Positions 3,829 through 51,434 of a stretch of 51,434 nucleotides of DNA are shown here, piece after piece. Under the pieces are notes generated by a model. That model worked only from the letters and a program-made list of their open reading frames with translations. It was not told where the DNA came from and did not search any database. The translations under genes were made by a program, and so were the position numbers. The stretch is from Bizionia argentinensis JUB59 (GTDB taxonomy: Bacteria; Bacteroidota; Bacteroidia; Flavobacteriales; Flavobacteriaceae). The DNA lies in contig NZ_AFXZ01000022.1 in the NCBI RefSeq assembly GCF_000224335.1, forward strand, positions 1 through 51,434, read 5' to 3'. Each line of letters starts with the position of its first letter. Positions within the stretch are counted from its first letter, which is position 1.

Positions 3829-4755
3829 ATGAAAGTAACAGTAGTTGGTGCTGGAGCCGTAGGAGCCAGTTGTGCAGAATATATAGCGATTAAAAATTTC
3901 GCATCAGAAGTTGTTCTATTAGATATTAAAGAAGGTTTTGCAGAAGGTAAAGCTATGGATTTAATGCAAACGGCATCTTTAAACGGATTTGATACAAAAA
4001 TAACAGGTATCACTAATGATTATTCGGCAACTGCCAATAGTGATATTTGTGTAATTACATCTGGAATTCCTAGAAAACCGGGTATGACGCGTGAGGAGTT
4101 AATCGGTATCAATGCTGGTATTGTAAAAGCAGTTTCATCTAGTTTAATTGAGCACTCGCCAAACACGATTATTATTGTGGTTAGTAATCCTATGGATACG
4201 ATGGCATATTTAGTTCATAAAACAACAAATTTACCAAAAAGCCGTATTATAGGAATGGGTGGAGCTTTAGATTCTGCACGTTTTAAATACCGTTTAGCTG
4301 AAGCTTTAGAAGCGCCTATTAGTGATGTAGACGGAATGGTGATTGGTGGGCACAGCGACACTGGAATGGTGCCATTAACACGTTTAGCAACACGTAACAG
4401 TGTGTTGGTTACCGAGTTTTTATCGGAAGAGCGTTTAAATCAAGTTAAAGAAGATACTAAAGTGGGTGGAGCTACACTTACTAAATTGTTAGGAACGTCT
4501 GCTTGGTATGCACCAGGAGCTGCAGTAAGTGGATTAGTTCAAGCTATTGCTTGCGATCAGAAAAAAATGTTTCCATGTTCTGTTTTATTAGAAGGTGAAT
4601 ATGGTTTAAATGATATTTGTATTGGAGCGCCTGTAATTTTAGGTCGTAATGGTATTGAGAAAATTGTTGAAATCAAATTAACGGATGCTGAAAAAACGCA
4701 TATGCAAGAAAGTGCAGAAGGTGTAAGAAAAACAAATGGCCTTTTGGCATTATAA
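3829..4755 (+). CDS. mdh: malate dehydrogenase
   Basis: NAD-dependent oxidation of malate to oxaloacetate in the TCA cycle; cytoplasmic. 308 aa, typical of the LDH-like bacterial MDH type. Visible: the dinucleotide-binding loop GAGAVGAS at residues 7-14, substrate-binding arginines in IPRKPGMTREEL near 82-93, SNPMDTMAYL near 124, GMGGALDSARF near 143, and the catalytic His in GGHSDTGMVPL near 175. The inserted Gly after SDT is a small variation on the common GGHGDTMVP. It has its own promoter-like box and lies 78 bp upstream of a separate secreted-protein gene. Confidence 0.97.
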   Translation: MKVTVVGAGAVGASCAEYIAIKNFASEVVLLDIKEGFAEGKAMDLMQTASLNGFDTKITGITNDYSATANSDICVITSGIPRKPGMTREELIGINAGIVKAVSSSLIEHSPNTIIIVVSNPMDTMAYLVHKTTNLPKSRIIGMGGALDSARFKYRLAEALEAPISDVDGMVIGGHSDTGMVPLTRLATRNSVLVTEFLSEERLNQVKEDTKVGGATLTKLLGTSAWYAPGAAVSGLVQAIACDQKKMFPCSVLLEGEYGLNDICIGAPVILGRNGIEKIVEIKLTDAEKTHMQESAEGVRKTNGLLAL

Positions 4756-35664: not shown

Positions 35665-36615
35665 TTAAAATTTTAGATTAATTTGTTGTGCTCGTTTAGA
35701 AATTAGTTCTTTGAATGCTTCTTTTTTTTCAATGCTTAAAAAGCTGTTATTAATTAGTTGCTCCCATTCTGTCATTCCGGTTTCTATACGTTTCCAAGTG
35801 TTTTGGATAGCCTTATTAGGAATACCACTTCCTGCTATGGCGCTCTCAAAATCCGTACGTTTTATACGATTCTTTTTGCCATTGATATTGAGTGCTAGCT
35901 CTTCTGGATCGTCAACAAGTAGTTGTGCGGAAATCATATCATATACGGGTGTTAAACTATAATTTCCTGGTGCCTCGGCAATCAGAGAGAAGTTTTTTAA
36001 ATGCATATCATTGTTTCCTATAAGAAACGAAACTATTACCTGTTCATAAAAGCGTATAATATCAATTAAGGGATTATAACCGTAGGTTTTTATACCCTTT
36101 GCAATTTGCTCATAAGACCCTCTGTATTTATGTTCTGTCAAGCGTTCTGTAAACTGACAGGCATCTTCCATTGCCAATTTGCTGCCATCTGGTTTGCGGT
36201 CTATTCGTCGTGTTAGGTAAGCGAGTTCTCCATCTTTCAGGGGAATTAATAAGAAGGGTACTGTGTCTACACCGCATACTTTGGCAAGATGCATGGATAG
36301 AGCTTCTATTTGTGGCATTTCAGGGTGTAGCGCAAATGGTGGCTTTAATATAAATCGTCCATTTAAAGCTCCAACGATGGTTAGGCGCTTATTATTATTA
36401 ATCTCCTCATTATTATAGCCTAAAGATAGTTTTGGCTGTACACCAGTAACGATTAAACGCTGTGCTACATTCTCTTTGGCCAGCTGGTCTATTTCCGACA
36501 TGCCGTACTCCAATTGCATTACAGGTTTGTTGTCTTGCCAAAATTCTTTAAGGCAAGCTTCATGATACATATTAGTACCGCTTTCAATGGTTTTATGGCA
36601 TGCTAAACAAATCAT
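35665..36615 (-). CDS. hipT: HipA-type kinase toxin, HipT-like
   Basis: 316 aa Ser/Thr kinase of the HipA family, lacking the N-terminal subdomain, which is a separate gene here. Start at 36615 because its ATG overlaps the upstream stop as ATGA. Visible: a Cys/His motif C3-x2-C6, H18-x2-C21, likely a small zinc site; the Gly/Ser loop VTGVQPKLSL at 56-65, where HipA-type kinases autophosphorylate; catalytic loop D203-M-H-L-K207-N208 (NNDMHLKNFS); metal Asp D226 (VYDMISA). HipA/HipT kinases phosphorylate aminoacyl-tRNA synthetases; the target here is unknown. Third gene of a tripartite operon. Confidence 0.88.
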   Translation of the reverse strand: MICLACHKTIESGTNMYHEACLKEFWQDNKPVMQLEYGMSEIDQLAKENVAQRLIVTGVQPKLSLGYNNEEINNNKRLTIVGALNGRFILKPPFALHPEMPQIEALSMHLAKVCGVDTVPFLLIPLKDGELAYLTRRIDRKPDGSKLAMEDACQFTERLTEHKYRGSYEQIAKGIKTYGYNPLIDIIRFYEQVIVSFLIGNNDMHLKNFSLIAEAPGNYSLTPVYDMISAQLLVDDPEELALNINGKKNRIKRTDFESAIAGSGIPNKAIQNTWKRIETGMTEWEQLINNSFLSIEKKEAFKELISKRAQQINLKF

Positions 36616-36926
36616 ATTTCGCGAATGCTTATGTTGCCGATACAGTCGCGGCAAGTGGTTAATAATAGTCCCATGCGATCTCTAGGATTGAGCTTCCAGT
36701 TTTTATGTGCAATTTCGAGTAACCAGCCTTCTGGAATTAATCCATCAAAAAAAGGAAATAGGTATTCCGACTGATACACGTCTTCCTGCAGCGGTAATGA
36801 TAGCGCTATGGGCATTGGGTTATCGGTATTCAAATATGCAGCATCGTAAGAAAAGAAGTAACCTTCATCGGTTTCTTTCAAAATGCCTGCCTGCTGGTTA
36901 TTTATCCAGATTGCTCCTTGTCTCAT
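36612..36926 (-). CDS. hipS: HipA N-terminal-subdomain protein, HipS-like antitoxin
   Basis: 104 aa matching only the N-terminal subdomain of HipA (WINNQQAGILKE at the start; LPLQEDVYQSEYLFPFFDGLIPEGWLLE at 44-71). In the known HipBST systems this stand-alone piece is the antitoxin. W68 in the PEGW motif is a candidate for the residue that plugs the kinase pocket, by analogy only. The stop overlaps the kinase start by ATGA and the start overlaps hipB by 29 nt. Confidence 0.82.
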   Translation of the reverse strand: MRQGAIWINNQQAGILKETDEGYFFSYDAAYLNTDNPMPIALSLPLQEDVYQSEYLFPFFDGLIPEGWLLEIAHKNWKLNPRDRMGLLLTTCRDCIGNISIREI

Positions 36927-37140
36927 TTTTTATAGGTGTAGGGGTTAATGTATGACCAAAGAATTGTAATAACTGATTTACTTTATCTGTCATAACATTT
37001 GGTTTGCCTTGTTCGAGTTCGCGCAGGAAACGCAAGCCAATACCTGTCAAATCTGCTAGTTCTATTTGTGTGTATTTTGCCTCTTTTCGTCTGTAGCGTA
37101 CGAAAGTCGCTATGGCATTATCGCGGTCCCATGCTTTCAT
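36898..37140 (-). CDS. hipB: XRE-family DNA-binding protein, HipB-like
   Basis: 80 aa with one HTH at about residues 23-50 (YTQIELADLTGIGLRFLRELEQGK), the standard HipB/Cro fold. It begins the three-gene operon and starts directly next to the first of three palindromic operator-like sites. Expected to repress the operon by binding these sites. Confidence 0.85.
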   Translation of the reverse strand: MKAWDRDNAIATFVRYRRKEAKYTQIELADLTGIGLRFLRELEQGKPNVMTDKVNQLLQFFGHTLTPTPIKNETRSNLDK

Positions 37141-40603: not shown

Positions 40604-41593
40604 CTATATGTTTTTTTCTTCCGGTAGAATATCTAAATACATACCATGTGCTCGTAGATGGCTTTCTAAACTATATGTGATGCCTTTTTTTGCAATTTTG
40701 AAATGTTCCGGGGTAGGCTCGTATTTGTTTATTAAATCTTCCTCATGCTTACCATGATGATAGCTGAATTCCAAAGATTCAGGGTAACTAGAGCAATCAA
40801 TAATTATTGAAGGTTTATTTTTATAAGTGATTAAATTACTTTCTTTCCAGCCTTCTAATCGGTTAAAACCATACAAACTTAAGTTACTCCATTGGTAGGT
40901 TAATAACCAATAAACTAATTCTTTTTCGCTTTCAATTGTTTTAAATTCGGAAATAGCTTGTTTGGCGAACTCGTGCTTTTCTATTAAAGCGAGCACCTGT
41001 TTAATATCTGTAGAGAATTCCTGAAATAATTCAAATTGTTTATAATCGTTCATAAAAGGGATGGTACTAAAACTTTCGAGTAGTTCACGATGCTTTGTGC
41101 CCCAATATTCTATGTCCTCTATTAAAATGGTTTTATTATTAAACTTTTCAAAGTCACTTAATGCGTATTCTATTTTTTGTTTTTTAATTAGAAACTCTAT
41201 TGAAGGGGTGAAATTCACTTTTTCATCTTCATAGAATTCAAAATACATTGCGTATCTGGGAGTGATTTTTTCTTCATGTTTTAAATCATTACATAAATAT
41301 ATGTCTGTTACTCGGTCATCATTTTCTTCGAAAAACAGATTTAAAGCACAATTATCATCTGTTATAAAAGTAAGTGCGGCGCATCCTTTATTACAGGTAT
41401 TGCATATTCCTGGAATTATTTTATCAAAACTAAAAATCTTGTTTTCCTTTTTATGGTCAAATTGTTGTTTTAGGGTTTTTAAGAATAACTGTTTTGTGAC
41501 ATCCATGTATGAGCGATTGTCATCTAAAAGTCGCTCTAACTTTTCGATGTTCATTTCTTTAATGGCGGAGATGATTTGCTGTTTGTTGGTCAT
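40604..41593 (-). CDS. hypothetical protein with CxxCxxxC motif
   Basis: 329 aa, no signal peptide and no TM. Not recognised. A Cys cluster (GICNTCNKGCAAL, about residues 62-74) may bind metal. The C-terminal part has Asp/His-rich segments (IIDCSSYPESLEFSYHHGKHEEDL). Its promoter-like site at 41733-41760 has the same GGTTACC-N15-TATTAA form as those in front of the genes at 41884 and 44372, tying it to the same regulon. Confidence 0.65.
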   Translation of the reverse strand: MTNKQQIISAIKEMNIEKLERLLDDNRSYMDVTKQLFLKTLKQQFDHKKENKIFSFDKIIPGICNTCNKGCAALTFITDDNCALNLFFEENDDRVTDIYLCNDLKHEEKITPRYAMYFEFYEDEKVNFTPSIEFLIKKQKIEYALSDFEKFNNKTILIEDIEYWGTKHRELLESFSTIPFMNDYKQFELFQEFSTDIKQVLALIEKHEFAKQAISEFKTIESEKELVYWLLTYQWSNLSLYGFNRLEGWKESNLITYKNKPSIIIDCSSYPESLEFSYHHGKHEEDLINKYEPTPEHFKIAKKGITYSLESHLRAHGMYLDILPEEKNI

Positions 41594-41732: not shown

Positions 41733-41760
41733 TTAATATCACTTTCTAAAAAAGGTAACC
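41733..41760 (-). promoter_or_regulatory. cluster promoter P3 (GGTTACC-N15-TATTAA)
   Basis: On the minus strand GGTTACC 41760-41754, 15-nt spacer beginning TTTT, TATTAA 41738-41733; followed by TAG. About 140 nt upstream of the gene starting at 41593. Confidence 0.65.
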
Positions 41761-41839
41761 TTGATTTTTGTTTTAAAAATACTATACCTTCTATTTATAA
41801 CCTTCTGTTTTATCCAATTTTAAATATAAAATAAACGAG

Positions 41840-41867
41840 GGTTACCTTTTAATGTTTCAGGTATTAA
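41840..41867 (+). promoter_or_regulatory. cluster promoter P1 (GGTTACC-N15-TATTAA)
   Basis: GGTTACC 41840-41846, 15-nt spacer beginning TTTT, TATTAA 41862-41867, then GGATAAAATAA. The ATG of the membrane protein gene is 17 nt downstream. Confidence 0.7.
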
Positions 41868-41883
41868 GGATAAAATAAACCTT

Positions 41884-43158
41884 ATGAAACTTTTTAAAAC
41901 ACTACAAAATCACATGAAGCCTAAACATCAGAAATCAATCGACTTATTAGAAGACTCATTAAACTCAACTAAAAACTCAACTAACATAACAACTAAAGTA
42001 GAGCGCGTAAAAAGTTTTCAAGATTATGCCTTACAAAAAGCTGGTTTAAATAATGGAGACGCCACTTCTTTAAAAACTCATTTACGGTGTATTAAAGATG
42101 GCTATGTTGTTGATGAGACCTATAATGAAAACGAGCATCAAATTAGAAGGAAACAAATTGTAGGTAAAATTGAGTTAAAACAGGACGAAAAAGAAAGTAT
42201 TGAAGGAGCTAAAAGAAATATCGAGTCAGTAGAAATTCCATCGAGAAAAGAAAAGATTAAAGATTTTGATTCTGAAATTCAACAAACCAAACTGGATTTA
42301 GAAGCCAATAAAATCAATACTGGATATCAGGCTATAAAGCATTATACCTATATGACGTTAGTTATGTTATTATCGGTTTATCTGATTTTATTTTATGCAT
42401 CTGCTATATATGCTTCTTTTTTCCGAAATGCTAGTACTTTGATAGAGTTAGCTGGAGATGATATTGCTTTGTATCTTGATTCTATATTTGATATTAAAGG
42501 AATTTTTACACCATCATATTCTCTAATTATTGTTTATTTAGGTGCTTTCTTATTCTTTGCTATTGGCATGATTCCTCACACCATGGAGGGTAAATACAAA
42601 AAGTTAAAAGCAGGACTGGCCATATTGGGGTCATTAGTAGTTGATGCATTACTTGCCTATAAAATTGACAAAGGAATACATGATTTAAAAGTGATGGCAG
42701 GTATCGCAGAGGAAGACTGGAATTTTCTAACGAGCATCAATTTCTACCTCGTATTAGCTTTCGGGTTTTTAGCTTATTTAGTTTGGGGCTATATGTTTGA
42801 ATTAATGATAAAAGAGAAAGATAAGAAAAACGCACATATTTCAGCTGAACTATTAATAAAAGGTTTAAAGAAGTCTATTAGGGAAGAACGTCAACATATT
42901 AATAGTTTAGAGACAAAAGTGATAGAACTTGAGTCACAATTAGCGGTTTTAAAGTCACAAATTGAGCACCTGAAAAAAGACCTAGACCGTGCGATGTTAA
43001 ATCCTGATTTGCTTTCACAAAGTTTAACCAGCTTTTATATGGGATGGTTGCAATACTTAAACGGCTCCATAGAATTGAATGCCAAGAAGGAAGCCTGCAC
43101 TAATGCTTATGATGGCTTTATGGAAACACACTTTAAAATAACTCCATCATTTAATTAA
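41884..43158 (+). CDS. four-TM coiled-coil membrane protein
   Basis: 424 aa, not recognised as a named family. Coiled-coil regions at about 90-150 and 315-370 (Glu/Lys/Gln heptad style) flank four hydrophobic helices near 160-184, 218-237, 245-265 and 287-312. No signal peptide; inner membrane with long cytoplasmic coiled coils. Followed after 29 nt by an exported VWA-like gene. Preceded by P1. The pairing with a VWA-type protein suggests one membrane complex; function unknown. Confidence 0.7.
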   Translation: MKLFKTLQNHMKPKHQKSIDLLEDSLNSTKNSTNITTKVERVKSFQDYALQKAGLNNGDATSLKTHLRCIKDGYVVDETYNENEHQIRRKQIVGKIELKQDEKESIEGAKRNIESVEIPSRKEKIKDFDSEIQQTKLDLEANKINTGYQAIKHYTYMTLVMLLSVYLILFYASAIYASFFRNASTLIELAGDDIALYLDSIFDIKGIFTPSYSLIIVYLGAFLFFAIGMIPHTMEGKYKKLKAGLAILGSLVVDALLAYKIDKGIHDLKVMAGIAEEDWNFLTSINFYLVLAFGFLAYLVWGYMFELMIKEKDKKNAHISAELLIKGLKKSIREERQHINSLETKVIELESQLAVLKSQIEHLKKDLDRAMLNPDLLSQSLTSFYMGWLQYLNGSIELNAKKEACTNAYDGFMETHFKITPSFN

Positions 43159-43187
43159 AATTCACTTAAATACTACTATTTACTATT

Positions 43188-44048
43188 ATGAAAACTACAC
43201 TCTCATTTTCCGCGATAACAACAATATTTTTAACAGTTCTTTTTTTTAGTGCTTCAATTGTTTATGCTTTTGAGCCAGGTAAAAAACCACCACTCAACTA
43301 TAATATAATTCTTGATTTAAGTGATCGCGTATTGCAAGATCATCAAGTACAAAAGGATATGCTCTTAATTGAAGAGATGTTTAAGGTATTTGAAATTCAA
43401 GCACGTCGTGGATTGATTTTAACATCAAAAGATCGCTTCTCTGTAAAAATTATACCTCAAAAAGGGAGTCCACTGGATGTGAATTATTATGAAAACAAAC
43501 TACAACTATATTTGGATGAAGTTGCGGTAAAAGATAAGAATACAACTATTAGCAAATTTTCATCGACTTTACAAAGTACTTTACAGGAGTTGGTAAATGC
43601 TTGCAAATATGGTGAAACTAACGGAGCCTATTTTGGTGTTGATATTTGGAGCTATTTGTACAACAATGGTATTAGCTTTGAAAAGTTAGGGTATAATAAT
43701 GTGGCAGTAATTATAACGGATGGTTATTTTGATTTTGAAAATAGAAGTCATGTTTTAAAGGCTGAAAACAGATTTACTTCAACGCAATTTTTAAAGCAAT
43801 TAAAAGGGTTTGATTGGATGTCGATTGCACAAGAAAAGGACTATGGACTTATACCAATAGCTTTAAGTCGTCATGTAAACTGGATAGTGTCAGGTATTGA
43901 AAGTAAAAATTCACAAGATATTTTACAGACTAAAAAGATCACTTATTTTTGGGAAAAGTGGTTAAAAGAGTCTGGAGCTAAAAACTATCACTTTATACTG
44001 AATAGTTCTGGTCGCCAAATGAGCTCTCAACTGTTGGCAATACTTTAA
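43188..44048 (+). CDS. exported VWA-like protein
   Basis: 286 aa with a signal peptide (hydrophobic stretch about 12-28). The mature part begins NIILDLSDR, which fits strand 1 of a von Willebrand A fold with an imperfect MIDAS (D-x-S-x-R in place of D-x-S-x-S), and later NVAVIITDGYFDFENR matches the strand with the T-D-G end of the MIDAS. Acts probably in the periplasm, interacting with the membrane protein upstream. Metal binding may be lost through the Arg. Confidence 0.65.
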   Translation: MKTTLSFSAITTIFLTVLFFSASIVYAFEPGKKPPLNYNIILDLSDRVLQDHQVQKDMLLIEEMFKVFEIQARRGLILTSKDRFSVKIIPQKGSPLDVNYYENKLQLYLDEVAVKDKNTTISKFSSTLQSTLQELVNACKYGETNGAYFGVDIWSYLYNNGISFEKLGYNNVAVIITDGYFDFENRSHVLKAENRFTSTQFLKQLKGFDWMSIAQEKDYGLIPIALSRHVNWIVSGIESKNSQDILQTKKITYFWEKWLKESGAKNYHFILNSSGRQMSSQLLAIL

Positions 44049-44371
44049 GCCCTATTAGAATTGTTTTAGGACATTCTTACTCATAAAAAGGTTCGTTAAA
44101 ATGATATCCAAAGTAAATATATAAGCTATTTTACTATTCTCTTTAATTGGTTGTCACTCTGTAATTATTAGGAGTGTTTCAAAATATTAGGACAGAAAAA
44201 GTAGTTAATAGTCGATCTATATTATTTAAGGCGATAATACTTACTATATATTTAGATATAGTGAGGTTTGAAAGTTTTTTTAAAACGAATAATAATTATT
44301 TATATCAAATGCTTGGGTTACCTTTTTAGGAGTATGCTATTAATAGATAAATAACAATTACACATCTAATT
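44049..44371. other. intergenic stretch with promoter P2
   Basis: About 320 nt with no open frame of interest. It has the small palindrome ACTATAT/ATATAGT near 44250 and promoter P2 at 44316-44343. Confidence 0.45.
44316..44343 (+). promoter_or_regulatory. cluster promoter P2 (GGTTACC-N15-TATTAA)
   Basis: GGTTACC 44316-44322, 15-nt spacer beginning TTTT, TATTAA 44338-44343, then TAGATAAATAA. ATG of the 304-aa gene is 29 nt downstream. Confidence 0.7.
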
Positions 44372-45286
44372 ATGGCCTATTTAACAAAACATACCTATAG
44401 TAAATTAAGCAGAGAAATTGATTTAAAAACAAAAGTAAGTCAGGAGGTTTTTCAACAGCATATTCTAAAAGATTATAAACTCTATTTAATTTTTAACAGT
44501 GTTGAGTTGAAGTATCTTTTTAATTTTAAATTGCTGTTTGAAAATGATAAAGAGCAAATGAAACGCTACTTGAAGTATGTTCCAGCACAAAAAGACACTA
44601 AGAAGTACGTGTTTGAAATTAAGGGAAAATTAAAATATCACTTATCCTCAGACTGTTGGCATCTGAATAAAGACTTTTTGAATTATAATATTCCACAGGA
44701 GATTAGAGATTTGGGCGATGCAGCTATAGAAGATTATAGACGTTGGTTTAAAGCTGAAGGTTTTGCTGAACAATATTTAAAAGGCGAGCTTGATGTTAGC
44801 ATCGTTGTTTTCCGATATAATAATATCTTTCCTTTTAGATATGGGGTGGCTAGACTAAATGAAAAATACAAATTGATAGAAGAGCTACCTAATTCATCTA
44901 TTAAAACGGAAAGTCAACAATTTAATTACGATGCCTTTTTGAGAGATATTGAGGGTTTAAAAAAAGAACATGCTTTTCATTTCCAAAGTAGAGTTACCAG
45001 AATATTATCAAAATTCGATTATTTATTATATAGAAGTGATTCTGAAATCGTAGAAAAAATCACAGATTTATTTACGCCTGAATTTATAACCAATTATGGA
45101 ATGGATCGGGTTAAAGAGCTGTTTACTATTTCCAAGCGGATTAAAAAAGCACTTATGAAAGCACTTATAGATTATTTTAAATGGACTTACAAAAGTACCT
45201 TAAACAGTATTGATACTGTTACATTAGAAAATTTCGGTTTGGAATGTTGCCGTTCTTGTAAAGAAAACAAGACTGTAAAACGGTAA
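44372..45286 (+). CDS. hypothetical protein with Cys/His motif
   Basis: 304 aa, soluble, Lys- and Tyr-rich, no signal peptide. Two Cys-containing spots: KYHLSSDCWHLNKDF near 91-105 and, at the C-terminus, LECCRSCKEN. The first looks like a possible metal or nucleic-acid site. Not recognised. It has its own P2 promoter copy and ends 135 nt before the sigma gene. Confidence 0.65.
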   Translation: MAYLTKHTYSKLSREIDLKTKVSQEVFQQHILKDYKLYLIFNSVELKYLFNFKLLFENDKEQMKRYLKYVPAQKDTKKYVFEIKGKLKYHLSSDCWHLNKDFLNYNIPQEIRDLGDAAIEDYRRWFKAEGFAEQYLKGELDVSIVVFRYNNIFPFRYGVARLNEKYKLIEELPNSSIKTESQQFNYDAFLRDIEGLKKEHAFHFQSRVTRILSKFDYLLYRSDSEIVEKITDLFTPEFITNYGMDRVKELFTISKRIKKALMKALIDYFKWTYKSTLNSIDTVTLENFGLECCRSCKENKTVKR

Positions 45287-45288
45287 AG

Positions 45289-45316
45289 GGTTAGTAAGCA
45301 GCAGTGTAGCTCTTAA
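45289..45316 (+). promoter_or_regulatory. degenerate fourth copy of the cluster promoter motif
   Basis: GGTTAGT 45289-45295, 15-nt spacer, TCTTAA 45311-45316, 105 nt before the sigma gene. Same spacing as P1-P3 but 3 mismatches in 13 and no T-run; it could be chance. Confidence 0.3.
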
Positions 45317-45421
45317 AGTGTGACGCTAATTGACAATTTACTATGCTACTTCATGATATTTAGCTATTTTCGGACATGAACTACAAGGAGATAGTTTCCT
45401 AAACTAAAGTAAATTAGTAGT

Positions 45422-46033
45422 ATGAACGTTGCAGCATTATCAGATCAAGAGCTCGTTAGGTTAGTAAAACAGGACCAAGATTACCTAGGCCATATTTATA
45501 AAAAACATAAAGAATACTGTGTGCTTTTTATGAGGAAGATGACTACGGGTAGTAAAATTAGAGAAATAGATTTAGCAGATGTTTATCAGGACGTGATGTT
45601 AATTTTATATGAAAAAATAATAAAAGGTGATTTTGTATTGACATGTGCTTTGCAAACTTACTTGAATTCAGTTTGTCGTTTTCAGATTCTAAACAAATTT
45701 AAAGCTGCCGGAAAACAATTAAATTTTGAAGCTTACGAAGGTTTTAATGTGGATTCGATAAACGAACAATATGACGTTCAAATTCAAGATAATTTAGACG
45801 ATTTAGGAGATCAAGATGAGGAACAGTTTACAGCTCTAGAGAGGGCCTTACAAGTGTTGAAGGATAGCGGAGGCAAATGTTTTGAATTGCTTACGTTATT
45901 TTGGTATCATAGAAAATCAATGGTAGAGTTAACGGACCATTTTGGATATACTAATCCTGCTAATACAAAAAACCAAAAGGCAAAATGCCAAAAGCGATTA
46001 GAGAAATTAGCTTTTAATGAATTGAACATATAG
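45422..46033 (+). CDS. sigma-70 family RNA polymerase sigma factor, ECF-like
   Basis: 203 aa. Region 2 spans about 8-100 (SDQELVRLVKQDQDYLGHIYKKHK; DLADVYQDVMLILYEKI; TYLNSVCRFQILNKFK, the DNA-melting/-10 reading helix). Region 4 spans about 135-200 (ALQVLKDSGGKCFELLTLFWYHRKSMVELTDHFGYTNPANTKNQKAKCQKRL, -35 recognition). An acidic linker lies between. No sigma 3. First gene of a four-gene coupled operon; the next starts one base after its stop. Candidate reader of P1-P3. Confidence 0.88.
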   Translation: MNVAALSDQELVRLVKQDQDYLGHIYKKHKEYCVLFMRKMTTGSKIREIDLADVYQDVMLILYEKIIKGDFVLTCALQTYLNSVCRFQILNKFKAAGKQLNFEAYEGFNVDSINEQYDVQIQDNLDDLGDQDEEQFTALERALQVLKDSGGKCFELLTLFWYHRKSMVELTDHFGYTNPANTKNQKAKCQKRLEKLAFNELNI

Positions 46034-46034
46034 T

Positions 46035-47195
46035 ATGACATTATTAATACCACATATTAAATTAATATTAGAACCAGTATTAGAGGAACAAGGGCTATCA
46101 ATTACTGATGTCTCTATACCATGGGAAAACATTTGTGATGGTTTTTTACAGTACGAATTGGATTCGAAACCTTTATATACGGAGTTATACCGCATGGAGT
46201 TGAACAACCCAGAGCAAGTTATTAGTCAATTAGATACTTTACATAATGTTTTTATGACTGACCTTGCGGAGGACTTTGTTTTAGGAATAAGAACTGATTA
46301 CATTAAACCATTATTAACTAAAGAAGCTTCTCTTTTAAATAAAAAAATTACATTTTTAAGCCAGTTAAAAGTAGCAATAACAAAAACGGAACGTCAGCGT
46401 ATTGTTCAGGATTTGGATGAAATGAGCCAGCGCGCAGCGTTTGTTATTCCAGAAACTACATTAGAAAGTGCTTTAAAAAAAAAGACACGGGCTGACTTAA
46501 GGAATCAGTTCAATACCTGGGACAAAGAACTTGAAGAACTTGAAGAGTTTGAAGAGTTTGAAGTGAAGAAGCACATACCTGAATTAGAGTCCAACATATT
46601 TAAGAAAAAAAGTGAGAGTAACCCGGAAACATTAGATGCAGACACTAAAGATAATTCAAGTAAATCACGTGTTATTTCTTTATCTTGGGTAAAATACGCT
46701 GTTGCTGCTAGCGTATTAATTATGGCCGGTATATTTTATTTCAAATCGTTTCCAACTACTGATAATTCTATTCCTGTTTTCGCTAATGTTGAAACCTCAA
46801 CACAAACCGTACCTGTTATAGTAAATCAGGGAATGGGCTATGTTTCGAGTGTGACTGATCAACAAATAGAAATTGTTGTAATGGATTACACAAATCGAAT
46901 TGATTCTATTAATAAAGTATTAATTGATAATGACGATTCAGTTTATAAAAACGAATTAGAACGTTTGCAATTGTTAGAAAATACATATGTTTTTGATGAA
47001 AATAAATTAACAGTCCATTTGAAGGATATTAATAAACAATTTAATATTATTTATTTAAACGACGTCGATTTTTACTTGAACATAAGAGATCAGTATTATA
47101 GTATTGTTTCATCTGATGCTCCAACTAAATTGGTTGCTGAAAACGATGAGAGAATAATTGAGCAATTAGAGAAAATAATATTTGAAAATGAATAA
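46035..47195 (+). CDS. single-pass membrane protein, candidate anti-sigma factor
   Basis: 386 aa: ~215-residue cytoplasmic N-terminus, mostly helical with an acidic repeat EELEELEEFEEFE near 168-180, a TM helix at about 217-238 (WVKYAVAASVLIMAGIFYF), and a ~148-residue periplasmic part. This layout and the position one base after the sigma gene fit an anti-sigma factor, though I see no classic anti-sigma zinc motif. The next gene overlaps it by 8 nt. Confidence 0.7.
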   Translation: MTLLIPHIKLILEPVLEEQGLSITDVSIPWENICDGFLQYELDSKPLYTELYRMELNNPEQVISQLDTLHNVFMTDLAEDFVLGIRTDYIKPLLTKEASLLNKKITFLSQLKVAITKTERQRIVQDLDEMSQRAAFVIPETTLESALKKKTRADLRNQFNTWDKELEELEEFEEFEVKKHIPELESNIFKKKSESNPETLDADTKDNSSKSRVISLSWVKYAVAASVLIMAGIFYFKSFPTTDNSIPVFANVETSTQTVPVIVNQGMGYVSSVTDQQIEIVVMDYTNRIDSINKVLIDNDDSVYKNELERLQLLENTYVFDENKLTVHLKDINKQFNIIYLNDVDFYLNIRDQYYSIVSSDAPTKLVAENDERIIEQLEKIIFENE

Positions 47196-48330
47196 AGCGT
47201 TATTGTATTTTATGGTGTTTTTTCTAATTTATAGTGAGTCGTTTGCCCAAACAAGCCTGACTGAAAAGGAGCAAATAACGACTGTCTTTAATAAACTTGT
47301 GGCGGCTTATGGAAATTCGAAAACAGCCCCTAAACTCAAAATCACTTCTTCTAAGCAGCGAAAAACTCCTGCGGTATATTATGTTTCTCCTGTGCCAACG
47401 ATTAGTGTAGATAAAAACTTGTTATTGATTTGTAATCGTTTTGGAGAAGATAGTGAGAATGCCTTGTCTATAATTATCGCTCATGAATTAGCGCATTATT
47501 ATAATGATCATACATTTTGTACTGATTTTGCTTTTGCCGTCAGAAAAGAGGAGAGTGTATTTAGTAGTAAATTGAAGGCTCTATCAAAAACAGAAAAACT
47601 TGCTTTAGAAACAGAAGCAGATCATAAGGGATTGTTTTATTCATGTATGGCTGGATATAAACCTTTTGATGTATACCCCCAATTGTTAGATGCTATATAT
47701 CAATTTTATGATTTAGCTGATGCTAACAATGGATACCCAACAAAGAATGAACGTAAGGCTATTAATCTGCAAGCCCAAAAAAAAATTAATGAACTTTATA
47801 CCGTTTTTTTAGAAGGTGTTAGGGCTAATAAAAAAGAGGATTATGATACAGCCATTACAAGTTTTGAAATTCTAAATAATTATTTTCCGTCCAGAGAAAA
47901 TTATAACAATTTGGGGGTAATCCGCACATTAAAGGCTTTAAAATACCATCCCTTAAGTAGAGTTGCATTTAAAAATCCAGAGCGTTTTTTATACCCTTTG
48001 GGGATTGATACTAATAGTCGTTTACAACAAGCATCACGTGAACGCAGTTTAAATGAGAGTACTTTCCGAGTTATGCAGGATTTATTGAAACGAGCTCAAA
48101 AAGATTTTGAAAAAGCCATTAGCCTTGATGATACTTATACTCAAAGTTATATTAATCTTGCTTGTGTCTTTGATCTTTTGGGTAATTCAATGGCTGCAAT
48201 TGGTAAGATAAATGAACTTCCAAAAGAACAACAAAATAGTAGAGCTGCTCAACGAATTCTGGCGATTGCTTATTATAATTTGGAGATGGAAGATAAGGCT
48301 TTGGGAATATGGAAAAATTTAAAGTTATGA
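47188..48330 (+). CDS. exported HEXXH metallopeptidase with TPR tail
   Basis: 380 aa from the ATG at 47188 (a TTG 6 nt upstream is less likely). Signal peptide MNKALLYFMVFFLIYSESFAQ. Zinc-peptidase motif H99-E-L-A-H103 (IIAHELAHYYNDH) and a third-ligand candidate E143 in LETEADHKG, as in M48 enzymes. From about 215 the chain is TPR-like (DYDTAITSFEILNNYFPS; DFEKAISLDDTYTQSYINLA). Probably periplasmic. Its start overlaps the anti-sigma-like gene and its stop overlaps the CHAT gene (ATGA). Confidence 0.82.
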   Translation: MNKALLYFMVFFLIYSESFAQTSLTEKEQITTVFNKLVAAYGNSKTAPKLKITSSKQRKTPAVYYVSPVPTISVDKNLLLICNRFGEDSENALSIIIAHELAHYYNDHTFCTDFAFAVRKEESVFSSKLKALSKTEKLALETEADHKGLFYSCMAGYKPFDVYPQLLDAIYQFYDLADANNGYPTKNERKAINLQAQKKINELYTVFLEGVRANKKEDYDTAITSFEILNNYFPSRENYNNLGVIRTLKALKYHPLSRVAFKNPERFLYPLGIDTNSRLQQASRERSLNESTFRVMQDLLKRAQKDFEKAISLDDTYTQSYINLACVFDLLGNSMAAIGKINELPKEQQNSRAAQRILAIAYYNLEMEDKALGIWKNLKL

Positions 48331-51300
48331 AAATAATAGTTTTTATATTTTTTATTACTTCTCCATTATTTGCGCAAAAATTTAATGACAGTATTTTTTA
48401 TTATCATGATAAAAAAGATTTTAATAGAGCACTACTTTTTGCTGAAAAAGGAATAGAGCACAATAGAAATCTTCAAGACACATTGAATTTAGATTATGCA
48501 AACTGCTTATTTTATGTAGGAACATTTAAACAAAATTCTGATTTATCTTCAAGATATTATGACAAGGCTTTAGTTATTTACAAAAATAATTTGGGAGAAT
48601 ATGATACAGAATATGCCACATATCTCAAAATTGTCTCAAATTATTATTTTACAATTAATATTGATTATTTAAAAGCAAAAGAATATTTAATAGAACTTTC
48701 GAATAATCTGAAATTTAATTTGGGAGATAGAAACATTGATTATAGTAAAGTCATTTCCATATTGGCTACTTTATATTTTCATATAGAAGATTATGATAAT
48801 GCACTTTTGGCTTACAAGGAATCATTAGAAATAAAAATAGAATTATTTGAAAAAGAGAATTTAAATGGAATTCGAAATGTTGATTTCGCAATGTCTTTGG
48901 GTAATTTGGCGTTTTGTTATCATGTGCAAAGTAAATATTTATTGGCAGAACCATTATATATACAGGCTTTGGAAATAAGGGAGGAGGTGATTGGACTAGA
49001 ACATCCTGATTATTTATTAAATTTAGATAATTTAGTTACGCTATATATAGATTTAGAGGATTATGAAAATGTAGAAAGATTTGAGATCAAAAGGGCTGAA
49101 ACTAGAAAAATAATATTTGGATATAACAGTTATGAATACGCAACTTCTTTAAAAAGTTTGGGGATTATTTATCAAAGAAAAGGAAATTATGAAAAAGCTA
49201 TTGATTTGTACCTTAAATCATTAGAGATTCAAAAAGCTTTGTATAATGAAAACCAAGAAGACTATCTCACATTATTAAATAATTTAGCTAATTGTTATAA
49301 TTCTTTGGGAAATTATAATAAAGCAGAAATAATATTTATAGAAGCTCTGTCTGTATCCAAACCAAATAATTTAGATTATGCTGCAATTCTGACTAACCTA
49401 GGTAAAGCATATAACAACTTGGGAAATTTTAAGTTGTCTGAAAAGCACCATAAGCAATCCATAGAAATATATAAAAATATTCTTGGTGAAAACCATCTTA
49501 AATATAGAGTTGCTTCGGGGAATCTTGCAAGTAATTATATTGATCAATATAAATTTTCTGAAGCTGAAATAATTTTCAAAAACAATTTAACTTTTTATGA
49601 ACTTCACGATGATAAAGAAAACCCAGAATATTTAACTACTTTAAACAATTTGGGTTATTTATATAAGATTACTGGAAAGTATGAATTATCTGAAGTTTAT
49701 TATTTAAAATCTTATAATATTAGAAAAATAATTCTAGGAGAGAATCATCCAGATTTTATGAATTCGGAGAATAATTTGGCTGAGTTATACCGATTAAAAG
49801 GAGATTATAAAAAAGCAGAACGCATATTGCAGGAATTAACTCAAAAAAGGAAAGAATTATTGGGTAAAAACAACATAGATTATTTAATGTCTTTAAATAA
49901 TTTGGCTGTTTTATATGATGAAATTGGAGAATTTGATAAAGCAGAAGTATTACATCTGGAAGGATTAAATACAAGAAGACAAATATTTGGAGAACAAGAT
50001 TTACGATATGCAATTTCACTTAATAATGTAGGGCTACATTATAAAGATAGAGGTGATTTTATGAACGCAGAAGAATATTATATTAAGTCATTGAATATTA
50101 GAAAAAATATTCTTGGAACCGAAAATCTAGATTATTCGACTTCACTTAATAATTTAGGGGTGTTTTATAAGGAAATAAAAAATTATACAAAAGCACAAGA
50201 TTATTTAATGCAGTCTCTGACAATTACAATTAAGGTTTTAGGGAATAATCACATAGATAGCGCCCTTGTTTTAAATAATCTCGCTGTTTTATTTTTAAAA
50301 CAAGGAAAATATATTGAAGCAGAATTTTTTGCAAAAAATAATGTAGATATTATAATTGATAACCTTGGAACAGAAAATTTAAATTATGCTGACGCTATTC
50401 ATCAACTAGCTTCATGTCTAGAGTTGAAAGGAGACTCTATTAAAGCTGAAGAATTTTATTTATCTTCATTGGAGATTAAAACAAAAGTGCTTAATGAAAA
50501 TCACCCTGGATTTATCACTACTTATAACAATTTAGCTGTTTTTTATCTAAATATTAACAATTATGATAAATCTAAATTTTATGCTTTAAAAGCATTAAAC
50601 CTTATTCAAACCTTATATGGAGTTTATAATGATAGGTATTTACACTCCCTTTATAATAGCATTGTTTTATATGACGAAATGAATAATGATGTTATGGTAG
50701 AAGAATTAATACTACAAATATCAATTCCTTTAAGACAAAGGTTCTTGCGTTCAATAAATTTTTTATCCGTGAAAGAGCTAACAAATTATTATAAATCTTT
50801 TGAGGCTTTTAGATTTTTTCCACTATCATATATTCAAAAAAAAACTAATTTGAGCGGAGGTATTACTACTCATAGTTATGAAATTGAAACTTTAGTAAAA
50901 AGCTTATCCTTACGTAATCAGCAACGCATTAAGAATAATATTTTAAAAACAAAAGACACCGTTCTTGTTAATAGCTATTCTCAATTTATTAAACAAAAAA
51001 AGCAATTGGCACAATGGAAGAAACTTCCACTTTCTGATAGGTCTCAAGCATATGAACAACTTGATATAGACACTGAAAAGTTAGAAAAATATTTGAGTAG
51101 AAACTCTTCTGATTTTGCAACATCAGAAAATGCTCTTTCAATAAACTTTAGTCAGGTACAAGAGAAGCTTAAATCAAATGAAATAATTATAGATATAGTA
51201 GCGTATAATTATTATGATAAAAAATGGACTGATAGTATTATGTATAGTGCCTTTATAATAGGAAAAAATTATAAATCACCAAAGTATATTCCTCTTTTTG

Positions 51301-51434
51301 AGCAACAACAGTTAGATTCACTGATGAATCAAACAGATGCCCATGAAGCTACTATAAACAGGCTATATGCTGGACAAGCTATTAGTGATTTGTTTTTAAA
51401 ACCATTATTTAAAGAGTTAGAAGGAATTACTACG
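48327..51434 (+). CDS. exported TPR-CHAT domain protein, 3' end outside window
   Basis: Open to the window edge: 1036 codons. Start ATG overlaps the previous stop as ATGA. Signal peptide MKIIVFIFFITSPLFAQ. Residues about 60-790 are roughly a dozen ~42-aa kinesin-light-chain-type TPRs (YEKAIDLYLKSLEIQ; LLNNLANCYNSLGNYNKAE; YLTTLNNLGYLYKITGKYELSE). After a helical linker a CHAT domain begins near 940 (VQEKLKSNEIIIDIVAYNYY, then SAFIIGKNYKSPKYIPL). CHAT is a caspase-like protease fold; its catalytic His and Cys would lie beyond the window, so activity cannot be judged. Confidence 0.85.
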   Translation, partial: MKIIVFIFFITSPLFAQKFNDSIFYYHDKKDFNRALLFAEKGIEHNRNLQDTLNLDYANCLFYVGTFKQNSDLSSRYYDKALVIYKNNLGEYDTEYATYLKIVSNYYFTINIDYLKAKEYLIELSNNLKFNLGDRNIDYSKVISILATLYFHIEDYDNALLAYKESLEIKIELFEKENLNGIRNVDFAMSLGNLAFCYHVQSKYLLAEPLYIQALEIREEVIGLEHPDYLLNLDNLVTLYIDLEDYENVERFEIKRAETRKIIFGYNSYEYATSLKSLGIIYQRKGNYEKAIDLYLKSLEIQKALYNENQEDYLTLLNNLANCYNSLGNYNKAEIIFIEALSVSKPNNLDYAAILTNLGKAYNNLGNFKLSEKHHKQSIEIYKNILGENHLKYRVASGNLASNYIDQYKFSEAEIIFKNNLTFYELHDDKENPEYLTTLNNLGYLYKITGKYELSEVYYLKSYNIRKIILGENHPDFMNSENNLAELYRLKGDYKKAERILQELTQKRKELLGKNNIDYLMSLNNLAVLYDEIGEFDKAEVLHLEGLNTRRQIFGEQDLRYAISLNNVGLHYKDRGDFMNAEEYYIKSLNIRKNILGTENLDYSTSLNNLGVFYKEIKNYTKAQDYLMQSLTITIKVLGNNHIDSALVLNNLAVLFLKQGKYIEAEFFAKNNVDIIIDNLGTENLNYADAIHQLASCLELKGDSIKAEEFYLSSLEIKTKVLNENHPGFITTYNNLAVFYLNINNYDKSKFYALKALNLIQTLYGVYNDRYLHSLYNSIVLYDEMNNDVMVEELILQISIPLRQRFLRSINFLSVKELTNYYKSFEAFRFFPLSYIQKKTNLSGGITTHSYEIETLVKSLSLRNQQRIKNNILKTKDTVLVNSYSQFIKQKKQLAQWKKLPLSDRSQAYEQLDIDTEKLEKYLSRNSSDFATSENALSINFSQVQEKLKSNEIIIDIVAYNYYDKKWTDSIMYSAFIIGKNYKSPKYIPLFEQQQLDSLMNQTDAHEATINRLYAGQAISDLFLKPLFKELEGITT

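Follow-up and report, generated by a model that had tools for sequence, protein, structure and literature searches.

A stretch of 51,434 nucleotides (nt) from Bizionia argentinensis JUB59 (contig NZ_AFXZ01000022.1, positions 1 to 51,434 of the forward strand; hereafter the window) carries three copies of the element GGTTACC-N15-TATTAA in a gene cluster that also encodes a sigma factor of the extracytoplasmic function (ECF) type, starting at position 45422. The three sites very probably belong to this sigma factor. We consider it highly likely that GGTTACC-TTTT-N11-TATTAA is the promoter of the 45422 sigma factor and serves its own locus, with a partner protein of one transmembrane segment holding the sigma factor and exported proteases freeing it. 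The motif, its conservation with the sigma gene, its confinement to the locus, and the gene order were established by comparison. The three sites are as follows:

41733..41760, minus strand: promoter 1, GGTTACC-N15-TATTAA, 139 nt 5' of the gene for a protein of 329 amino acids (aa)
41840..41867, plus strand: promoter 2, GGTTACC-N15-TATTAA, 16 nt 5' of the gene for a 424-aa protein
44316..44343, plus strand: promoter 3, GGTTACC-N15-TATTAA, 28 nt 5' of the gene for a 304-aa protein

The three exact copies were found at the coordinates and on the strands given by the first-pass annotation, each with a 15-nt spacer that opens with TTTT, and GATAAA follows the second box in both plus-strand copies, at a distance of 1 and 2 nt. 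The exact pattern was observed three times, compared to 0.005 expected per window (first-order Markov model; maximum of 1 in 400 simulations). Similarly, GGTTACCTTTT-N0..20-TATTAA occurred three times in the window, a count that was reached by none of 100 shuffles. When up to three mismatches were allowed, 33 matches were obtained in the window vs 27.6 expected, i.e., without enrichment, and the 11-mer GGTTACCTTTT alone was not enriched in the 3.28-Mb genome either (four copies, compared to nine of the reversed form). These two results would fit a chance repetition of an AT-rich pattern, but the exact matches are 600-fold above expectation and are conserved across sigma loci, as described below. 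Chance is thus refuted here, with a probability that is practically nil. An unusual feature of the four GGTTACCTTTT copies is that all of them have TATTAA at N14 or N15 from GGTTACC.

Because the three-mismatch pattern is not enriched, degenerate copies carry no weight. This includes the copy at 45289-45316 that had been proposed in front of the sigma gene: its three mismatches are at chance level, and it is unconserved in B. arctica, where the sigma factor is 81% identical. The boxes of the promoters stand out as conserved islands in the B. arctica alignment. Promoter 1, which is overlapped by a mechanically called 50-aa open reading frame (ORF) on the opposite strand, aligns to GGTTACT-N15-TATTAA, and promoter 2 is kept with both boxes and the 5' leader. 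The motif is also found 5' of the orthologue of the 424-aa gene in genome G284 (64% identity).

The genome scan that had been proposed with the annotation yielded five exact matches to GGTTACC-N14..16-TATTAA (reversed control, two), rather than many matches upstream of unrelated genes. Three of the five are those in the window, and one (N14, C51:4740) precedes a gene for an HNH protein on contig C51. The fifth, C59:137364, lies inside an ORF of contig C59 (ApbE-like by eye); it was rejected as a promoter and attributed to chance. Contig C51 has one more site, at 4634 on the minus strand, which is divergent and reads GGTTACC-N15-TATAAA.

Next to these sites, the association of the motif with the sigma factor was examined across genomes. 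GTDB genomes were scanned with the sigma alignment, which gave 48 loci (L122, L130, and L134 being genomes G284, G156, and G177), and these loci were searched for the motif with at most one mismatch and N14-16. The motif was present in 44 of the 48 loci, as the annotation had expected of orthologous clusters. There were 104 matches in 811 kb (reversed motif, 8), of which 9 lie within called ORFs; exact N15 matches numbered 47 vs 0. The 78 control loci (288 kb, each shorter than the sigma loci) gave two matches vs five reversed, and none was exact. Among them, the 28 loci with homologues of the 424-aa protein, taken from genomes without a sigma orthologue, had no match (one reversed), nor did the 29 loci of distant sigma factors (three reversed); both matches came from the other 21 loci (one reversed).

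The same association was seen in whole genomes. A clear sigma orthologue was present in 4 of 397 family genomes (G000, G284, G156, and G177; E ≤ 2.7e-35, with the next match at 2.9e-18). The pattern of T-tract and TATTAA was found in 5 of the 397 (G000, G284, G079, G108, and G335), two of them with a sigma orthologue, and this scarcity outside the locus supports the private regulon that had been suggested. Only 3 of the 393 genomes without a sigma orthologue hold the pattern; their single matches (G079, G108, and G335) were rejected, as they lie inside ORFs and these genomes have no sigma match at E 0.01. All four exact sites in the whole genome of G284 are within the sigma locus. G156 has two GGTTACC...TATAAA sites at its sigma locus, one of them before a four-gene run that ends in the sigma gene. 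No convincing site was found in G177, and the exact T-tract pattern was matched by neither G156 nor G177. We also chose 12 sigma-bearing whole genomes and searched them with GGTTACCTTTT-N11-TATWAA, a pattern that misses variants without the T-tract or with other spacing. It gave 28 matches, which came from 11 of the genomes (G177 had none). Every match was on the contig of the sigma gene and within about 17 kb of it; the reversed control gave one. Since 44 of the 48 sigma loci contain the motif and all 28 whole-genome matches lie near the sigma gene, the claim that the motif is read by the sigma factor at 45422 is well supported.

The sigma tree comprised 92 rows, with L150 (short match) and six control sigma factors with an in-frame stop omitted. 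The window sequence falls into a clade of 36 (support 100/99), of which 34 carry the motif label, or 33 when L125, with its match in an ORF, is subtracted. The label is carried by 45 rows and requires 5 changes, vs a mean of 31 after shuffling; none of 500 shuffles was as low. It is also present on a Rufibacter/Pontibacter group of 10 and on L085, both apart from the window clade. In the Rufibacter/Pontibacter group, where CHAT, M48, and 424-aa profiles found nothing in the fetched DNA, the sigma gene is still accompanied by a motif variant. L085 (position 1455; genome G379) is a control locus in which a distant sigma factor (31% identity) has GGTTACC-N15-CATTAA beginning 46 nt 5' of the sigma match; judging from this locus, the promoter code may extend further.

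The genome encodes paralogous sigma factors on C59 (34% identity) and C52 (27%), and their kinship makes it conceivable that one of them, or another sigma factor of the genome, reads the sites. Moreover, GTTAACCTTTTTAATT...TATTAA precedes the C59 gene and is conserved in seven loci. However, this element reaches right up to the start codon and is preceded by a TAnnTTAG-like box, and is thus probably a leader; on the same grounds, GTTAACC...TATTAA was rejected as an autoregulatory promoter of the C59 gene. In addition, the 29 distant-sigma loci that lack the GGTTACC motif at one mismatch or less include 11 of this genome or genus, and the genus members G001 and G002 have a C59-type sigma factor but no match to the T-tract pattern. 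Reading by a paralogue is therefore very improbable. Two further observations concern the C59 paralogue. The element GTTAACCTTTTnAATT...TATTAA lies directly 5' of the paralogous sigma start codon, behind a TAnnTTAG-like box, in seven loci of three genera (G000:C59:9377-9980, which is L076 and the same place as L025; L011, L012, L027, L028, L029, and L033), and is probably a leader element. By eye, the neighbours of the C59 gene also include one anti-sigma-like and one CHAT-like gene.

The consensus was derived from 75 distinct N15 sites located at most 150 nt from the first gene, with the Rufibacter group excluded. GGTTACC is near-invariant by selection. It is followed by TTTT at 93-99%, although the scan did not require a T-tract, then by an unconserved stretch, TAT(T/A)AA, and TAnA starting 5 nt later. 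The fourth base of the second box is T in 75%, A in 20%, and C in 5%. This stricter conservation of GGTTACC, together with the almost palindromic form GGTNACC, would also be expected if GGTTACC were the operator of a DNA-binding regulator and TATTAA just an AT-rich start region or an ordinary -10 box. The spacing is not uniform either: it is 15 in 90 of 109 matches, 16 in 13 (10 of these from the Rufibacter/Pontibacter group), and 14 in 6, i.e., 19 matches deviate. Outside the Rufibacter/Pontibacter group, however, N15 is kept in 77 of 85 GTDB matches, and the sigma gene remains with the motif in groups in which none of the CHAT, M48, and 424-aa profiles gives a match. The flanks of the GGTTACC core are asymmetrical. 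Although no systematic search was made for other DNA-binding genes, an operator is improbable, and a promoter of the 45422 sigma factor is the preferred explanation.

The genes of the cluster are as follows:

40604..41593, minus strand: 329-aa protein, target of promoter 1; no transmembrane-like segment, no family above cut-off
41884..43158, plus strand: 424-aa protein, target of promoter 2; transmembrane-like segments, coiled coil by eye
43188..44048, plus strand: 286-aa protein; N-terminus hydrophobic, resemblance to VWA by eye only (no Pfam match)
44372..45286, plus strand: 304-aa protein of no known family, target of promoter 3
45422..46033, plus strand: ECF-type sigma factor of 203 aa, proposed to read the promoters
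46035..47195, plus strand: 386-aa protein with one transmembrane-like segment (residues 213-231)
47188..48330, plus strand: M48-type metallopeptidase with TPRs and HELAH (Pfam M48, E 3.1e-4, 21.1 bits, cut-off 20.3)
48309..51434, plus strand: TPR-CHAT protein, open ORF; TPRs, hydrophobic N-terminus, CHAT domain past the contig end

The 286-aa gene is probably in the same operon as the 424-aa gene. Kinship of the 329-aa and 304-aa proteins was considered and rejected, as no similarity was found. The 424-aa family has 11 members, including that of the window, which are first genes behind the motif, and the B. arctica homologue of the 329-aa protein likewise sits behind it. A PADLOC scan of seven window proteins gave weak matches only (best E 8e-4, on coiled coil), and carriage of the sigma gene on a plasmid or phage was rejected after no match was found at E 1e-10 and 1e-6. 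Elsewhere in the window, a HipA-like gene is present as two ORFs with an adjoining helix-turn-helix gene (35665-37140, minus strand; HipA N-terminal domain and helix-turn-helix by Pfam).

The contiguous order in B. arctica is 429-aa, VWA-like, 312-aa, sigma, partner, M48-type, CHAT1, and CHAT2 genes, then a third CHAT gene, a convergent 126-aa gene, and 170-aa, VWA, and HNH genes. The window TPR-CHAT protein is 91% identical to CHAT1 over 780 residues, and CHAT1 has a CHAT domain with E 7.9e-54. The M48-type homologue of B. arctica has no Pfam M48 match at E 0.001. B. arctica locus L107 contains three sites (two exact, one with one mismatch) and L171 three more (two exact, one with TATAAA). 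The pieces of C51 resemble the same region of B. arctica: its CHAT fragment is 87% identical to CHAT2 and 84% to CHAT1, its CHAT gene 67% to CHAT3, its 127-aa gene 73%, and its HNH gene 67%. Because these pieces match the later part of the B. arctica order, the contig of the window (C49) and C51 are very likely adjacent, separated by a gap of undefined length. No overlap was found between the ends of C49 and C51, and the contigs were left unjoined. If they are adjacent, all five promoters of the genome would share one locus. The CHAT domain on C51 (E 1.6e-56) has the motifs HIATHG and LSAC, which we take to be the CHAT His-Cys dyad. The 127-aa protein of C51 is called DUF4258-like only via its G156 homologue (23.5 bits vs the Pfam cut-off of 25). 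Past the regulon genes, C51 (L006 6163-14603) encodes HsdM and HsdS of a type I restriction-modification system, together with a NOV_C-domain protein of 1536 aa.

The 109 matches yielded 93 distinct first genes; matches that lay within an ORF, were more than 200 nt away, or faced another gene were excluded, and promoter 1 was kept despite the 50-aa ORF. The median distance from the second box to the start codon was 35 nt for the 93 distinct first genes. The largest class comprised 18 genes linked by BLAST, including that of the C51 HNH protein, followed by the 424-aa class with 11. The sigma gene itself was the first gene in 10 cases, nine of them from the Rufibacter group. The others were singletons or belonged to one of many small classes, and a good share of them have signal-peptide-like N-termini by eye.

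Autoregulation, which had been suggested for this regulon, is partly supported. Of 45 loci with enough upstream DNA, the window included, 30 have a same-strand motif at most 1.3 kb upstream of the sigma gene. In 9 of the 30 (L129 and eight of the Rufibacter group), the motif is directly 5' of the sigma gene; the other 21 have one or more ORFs in between. In the window, the motif nearest to the sigma gene is promoter 3, which lies 1,078 nt upstream, on the far side of the 304-aa gene. Read-through from promoter 3 into the sigma gene is possible; a consensus scan from promoter 3 to the sigma gene found no terminator-like site. Because L137, L139, and L140 have the motif only behind the sigma gene and the next gene, autoregulation seems to be common in relatives but not general, and it would be indirect in the window. 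The sequence AAGTAAATTAGTAGTATG (45407-45424), which covers the sigma start and the nucleotides just 5' of it, has two differences in B. arctica and is possibly a basal housekeeping-type promoter near the sigma start codon.

The identity of the sigma factor was assessed by modeling. The AlphaFold2 model (predicted local distance difference test, pLDDT, 79.8; predicted TM-score 0.47) consists of helical parts at residues 8-96 and 130-201, with residues 100-129 below pLDDT 50. As modeled, the protein has regions 2 and 4 only, with a flexible linker, as ECF sigma factors do. The first 35 Foldseek matches to the model were all sigma factors, with AlgU, SigW, and SigK among the top ones. The best match had a probability of 1.00 and E 2.5e-3; the whole-chain TM-score was <0.5 because the two sigma domains are placed freely. 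A profile match to SigW covered residues 5-98 (E 0.0027). On fold and profile similarity, the protein was filed as a divergent, ECF-type sigma factor, for which an ECF group number may already exist.

The 386-aa partner is a probable membrane anti-sigma factor. Its family has a conserved N-terminal half and one transmembrane-like segment. A partner directly after the sigma gene was recognized by similarity in 24 of the 48 loci, a CHAT gene in 17, and an M48-type gene in 16, with contigs often ending early. Twenty partners from these loci and that of the window were sorted by their outer half (L117 entered the second sorting only). Of the 14 beta-kind partners, 13 are followed by an M48-type gene; the remaining one (L149) is followed by a gene for a C14 caspase (E 8.2e-38). 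None of the seven TPR-kind partners (six assigned by script, L132 by visual inspection of the alignment) has an M48-type gene next, and all seven are directly followed by TPR-CHAT. Two Rufibacter/Pontibacter partners that were examined have a fused trypsin-like domain with GNSGG past the transmembrane-like segment. The CHAT His and Cys motifs were present in all nine relatives' genes checked. In L123 (16654-17441, a Flavobacterium davisii locus), the CHAT match is split over two ORF pieces. The N-terminus of the M48-type protein is signal-peptide-like by eye, and a crude hydropathy scan flagged the CHAT protein of the window, but not the M48-type or the HNH protein; judged by eye from their N-termini, the M48-type and CHAT proteins are probably exported. 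Mainly because a protease recurs next to the membrane partner, the proteases beside the sigma gene suggest release of the sigma factor by proteolysis.

Several observations, besides the uneven spacing, weigh against the preferred explanation. The sigma factor scores under the cut-offs of both NCBIfam sigma70-ECF (E 4.6e-9; 36.1 bits, cut-off 42.9) and Pfam region 2 (14.2 bits, cut-off 24), and its gene in the window has no motif immediately 5'. The motif is missing from L134, L138 (a 4.9-kb contig), L151 (3.1 kb), and L153, of which L134 (Aureicoccus) is a clade member with 20 kb of DNA and no match at one mismatch or less. In L125 and L147, the sole match is inside a called ORF. The Rufibacter/Pontibacter sites, which adjoin the sigma start, are without the T-tract and count as one lineage because they come mostly from closely related genomes. 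The match of the partner to the NCBIfam anti-sigma model is weak (E 0.002, far under the cut-off), and Foldseek found no structural match for it (model pLDDT 69.9). L124, L125, L126, and L133 were left out of the partner sorting as weak matches, although L125 and L133 do have an M48-type gene next. The correspondence of partner and protease follows relatedness in part; these are close relatives, and the counts are not independent. Finally, HExxH is present in 14 of 15 M48-type genes checked but not in L115.

Taken together, we infer that the sigma factor binds the motif, that the one-transmembrane protein is its anti-sigma factor, and that this protein is the target of the proteases, which are exported. 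In the proposed mechanism, RNA polymerase with the 45422 sigma factor would read GGTTACC-TTTT-N11-TATTAA. The sigma factor would serve its own locus, i.e., the three promoters of the window and the two on C51 if C51 is a neighbour, and thereby drive the 329-aa, 424-aa/286-aa, and 304-aa genes and those of the HNH and DUF4258-like proteins. The 386-aa protein would hold the sigma factor at the membrane, until the exported M48-type and TPR-CHAT proteases of the same operon cut its outer part and free the sigma factor. The circuit seems to face the envelope because of the transmembrane-like segment of the inhibitor and the export-type N-termini of the CHAT and M48-type proteins.

Circuits of the RpoE-RseA-DegS type consist of an ECF sigma factor, a partner with one transmembrane segment, and a protease. 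The window resembles them in all three components, and so does the trypsin-like domain of the two Rufibacter/Pontibacter partners. It differs in that targets were found only near the sigma gene, the protease families are CHAT, M48-type, and C14, and the anti-sigma role is putative. Such circuits are also named in the passages of the Craspase paper considered here (Strecker 2022, PMC10028731). Craspase/CASP-sigma, as described there, appears to be the closest analogue of the window circuit: the type III-E CRISPR system comprises the TPR-CHAT protein Csx29, Csx30, and an ECF-like sigma factor, the TPR-CHAT protease relieves a sigma inhibitor, and three strong matches to the sigma motif lie in its own locus (PMC10028731). 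Like this system, the window locus joins an ECF-type sigma factor, a putative inhibitor, and a TPR-CHAT protein, with sigma motifs in its own locus. A TPR-CHAT protein with the His and Cys dyad is represented here by the C51 CHAT, as the CHAT domain of the window lies past the contig end. Unlike in Craspase, a CRISPR-like array was not found in the window at 38.5-51.4 kb (one two-copy 70% repeat) or in L006 (none), the putative inhibitor has a transmembrane-like segment, and N-termini of the export type were recognized by eye in the CHAT and M48-type proteins. General scans of the seven window proteins, in which no dedicated model was run, reported neither Cas7-11 nor Csx30. EACC2-caspase loci with an ECF sigma factor and a TPR protein have also been described (Kaur 2021, PMC8195603), and the window is similar to them in encoding a caspase-type peptidase near an ECF sigma factor and a TPR protein. 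In contrast to the present locus, no promoter is defined in the PMC8195603 passages considered. Among the literature matches listed (titles and abstract openings), there was no account of the promoter or of a sigma-CHAT-M48 locus.

These results provide a promoter code for a divergent group of Bacteroidota sigma factors, by which target genes can be read from the sequence, and a sigma factor whose detectable targets are in cis. They show a sigma factor with neighbouring caspase-like proteases in a setting other than CRISPR, the partner domains corresponding to the type of protease, and make protease-triggered transcription at the envelope directly testable. The pairing of sigma factor and motif recurs in many Bacteroidota, often beside protease genes that may flip the switch.

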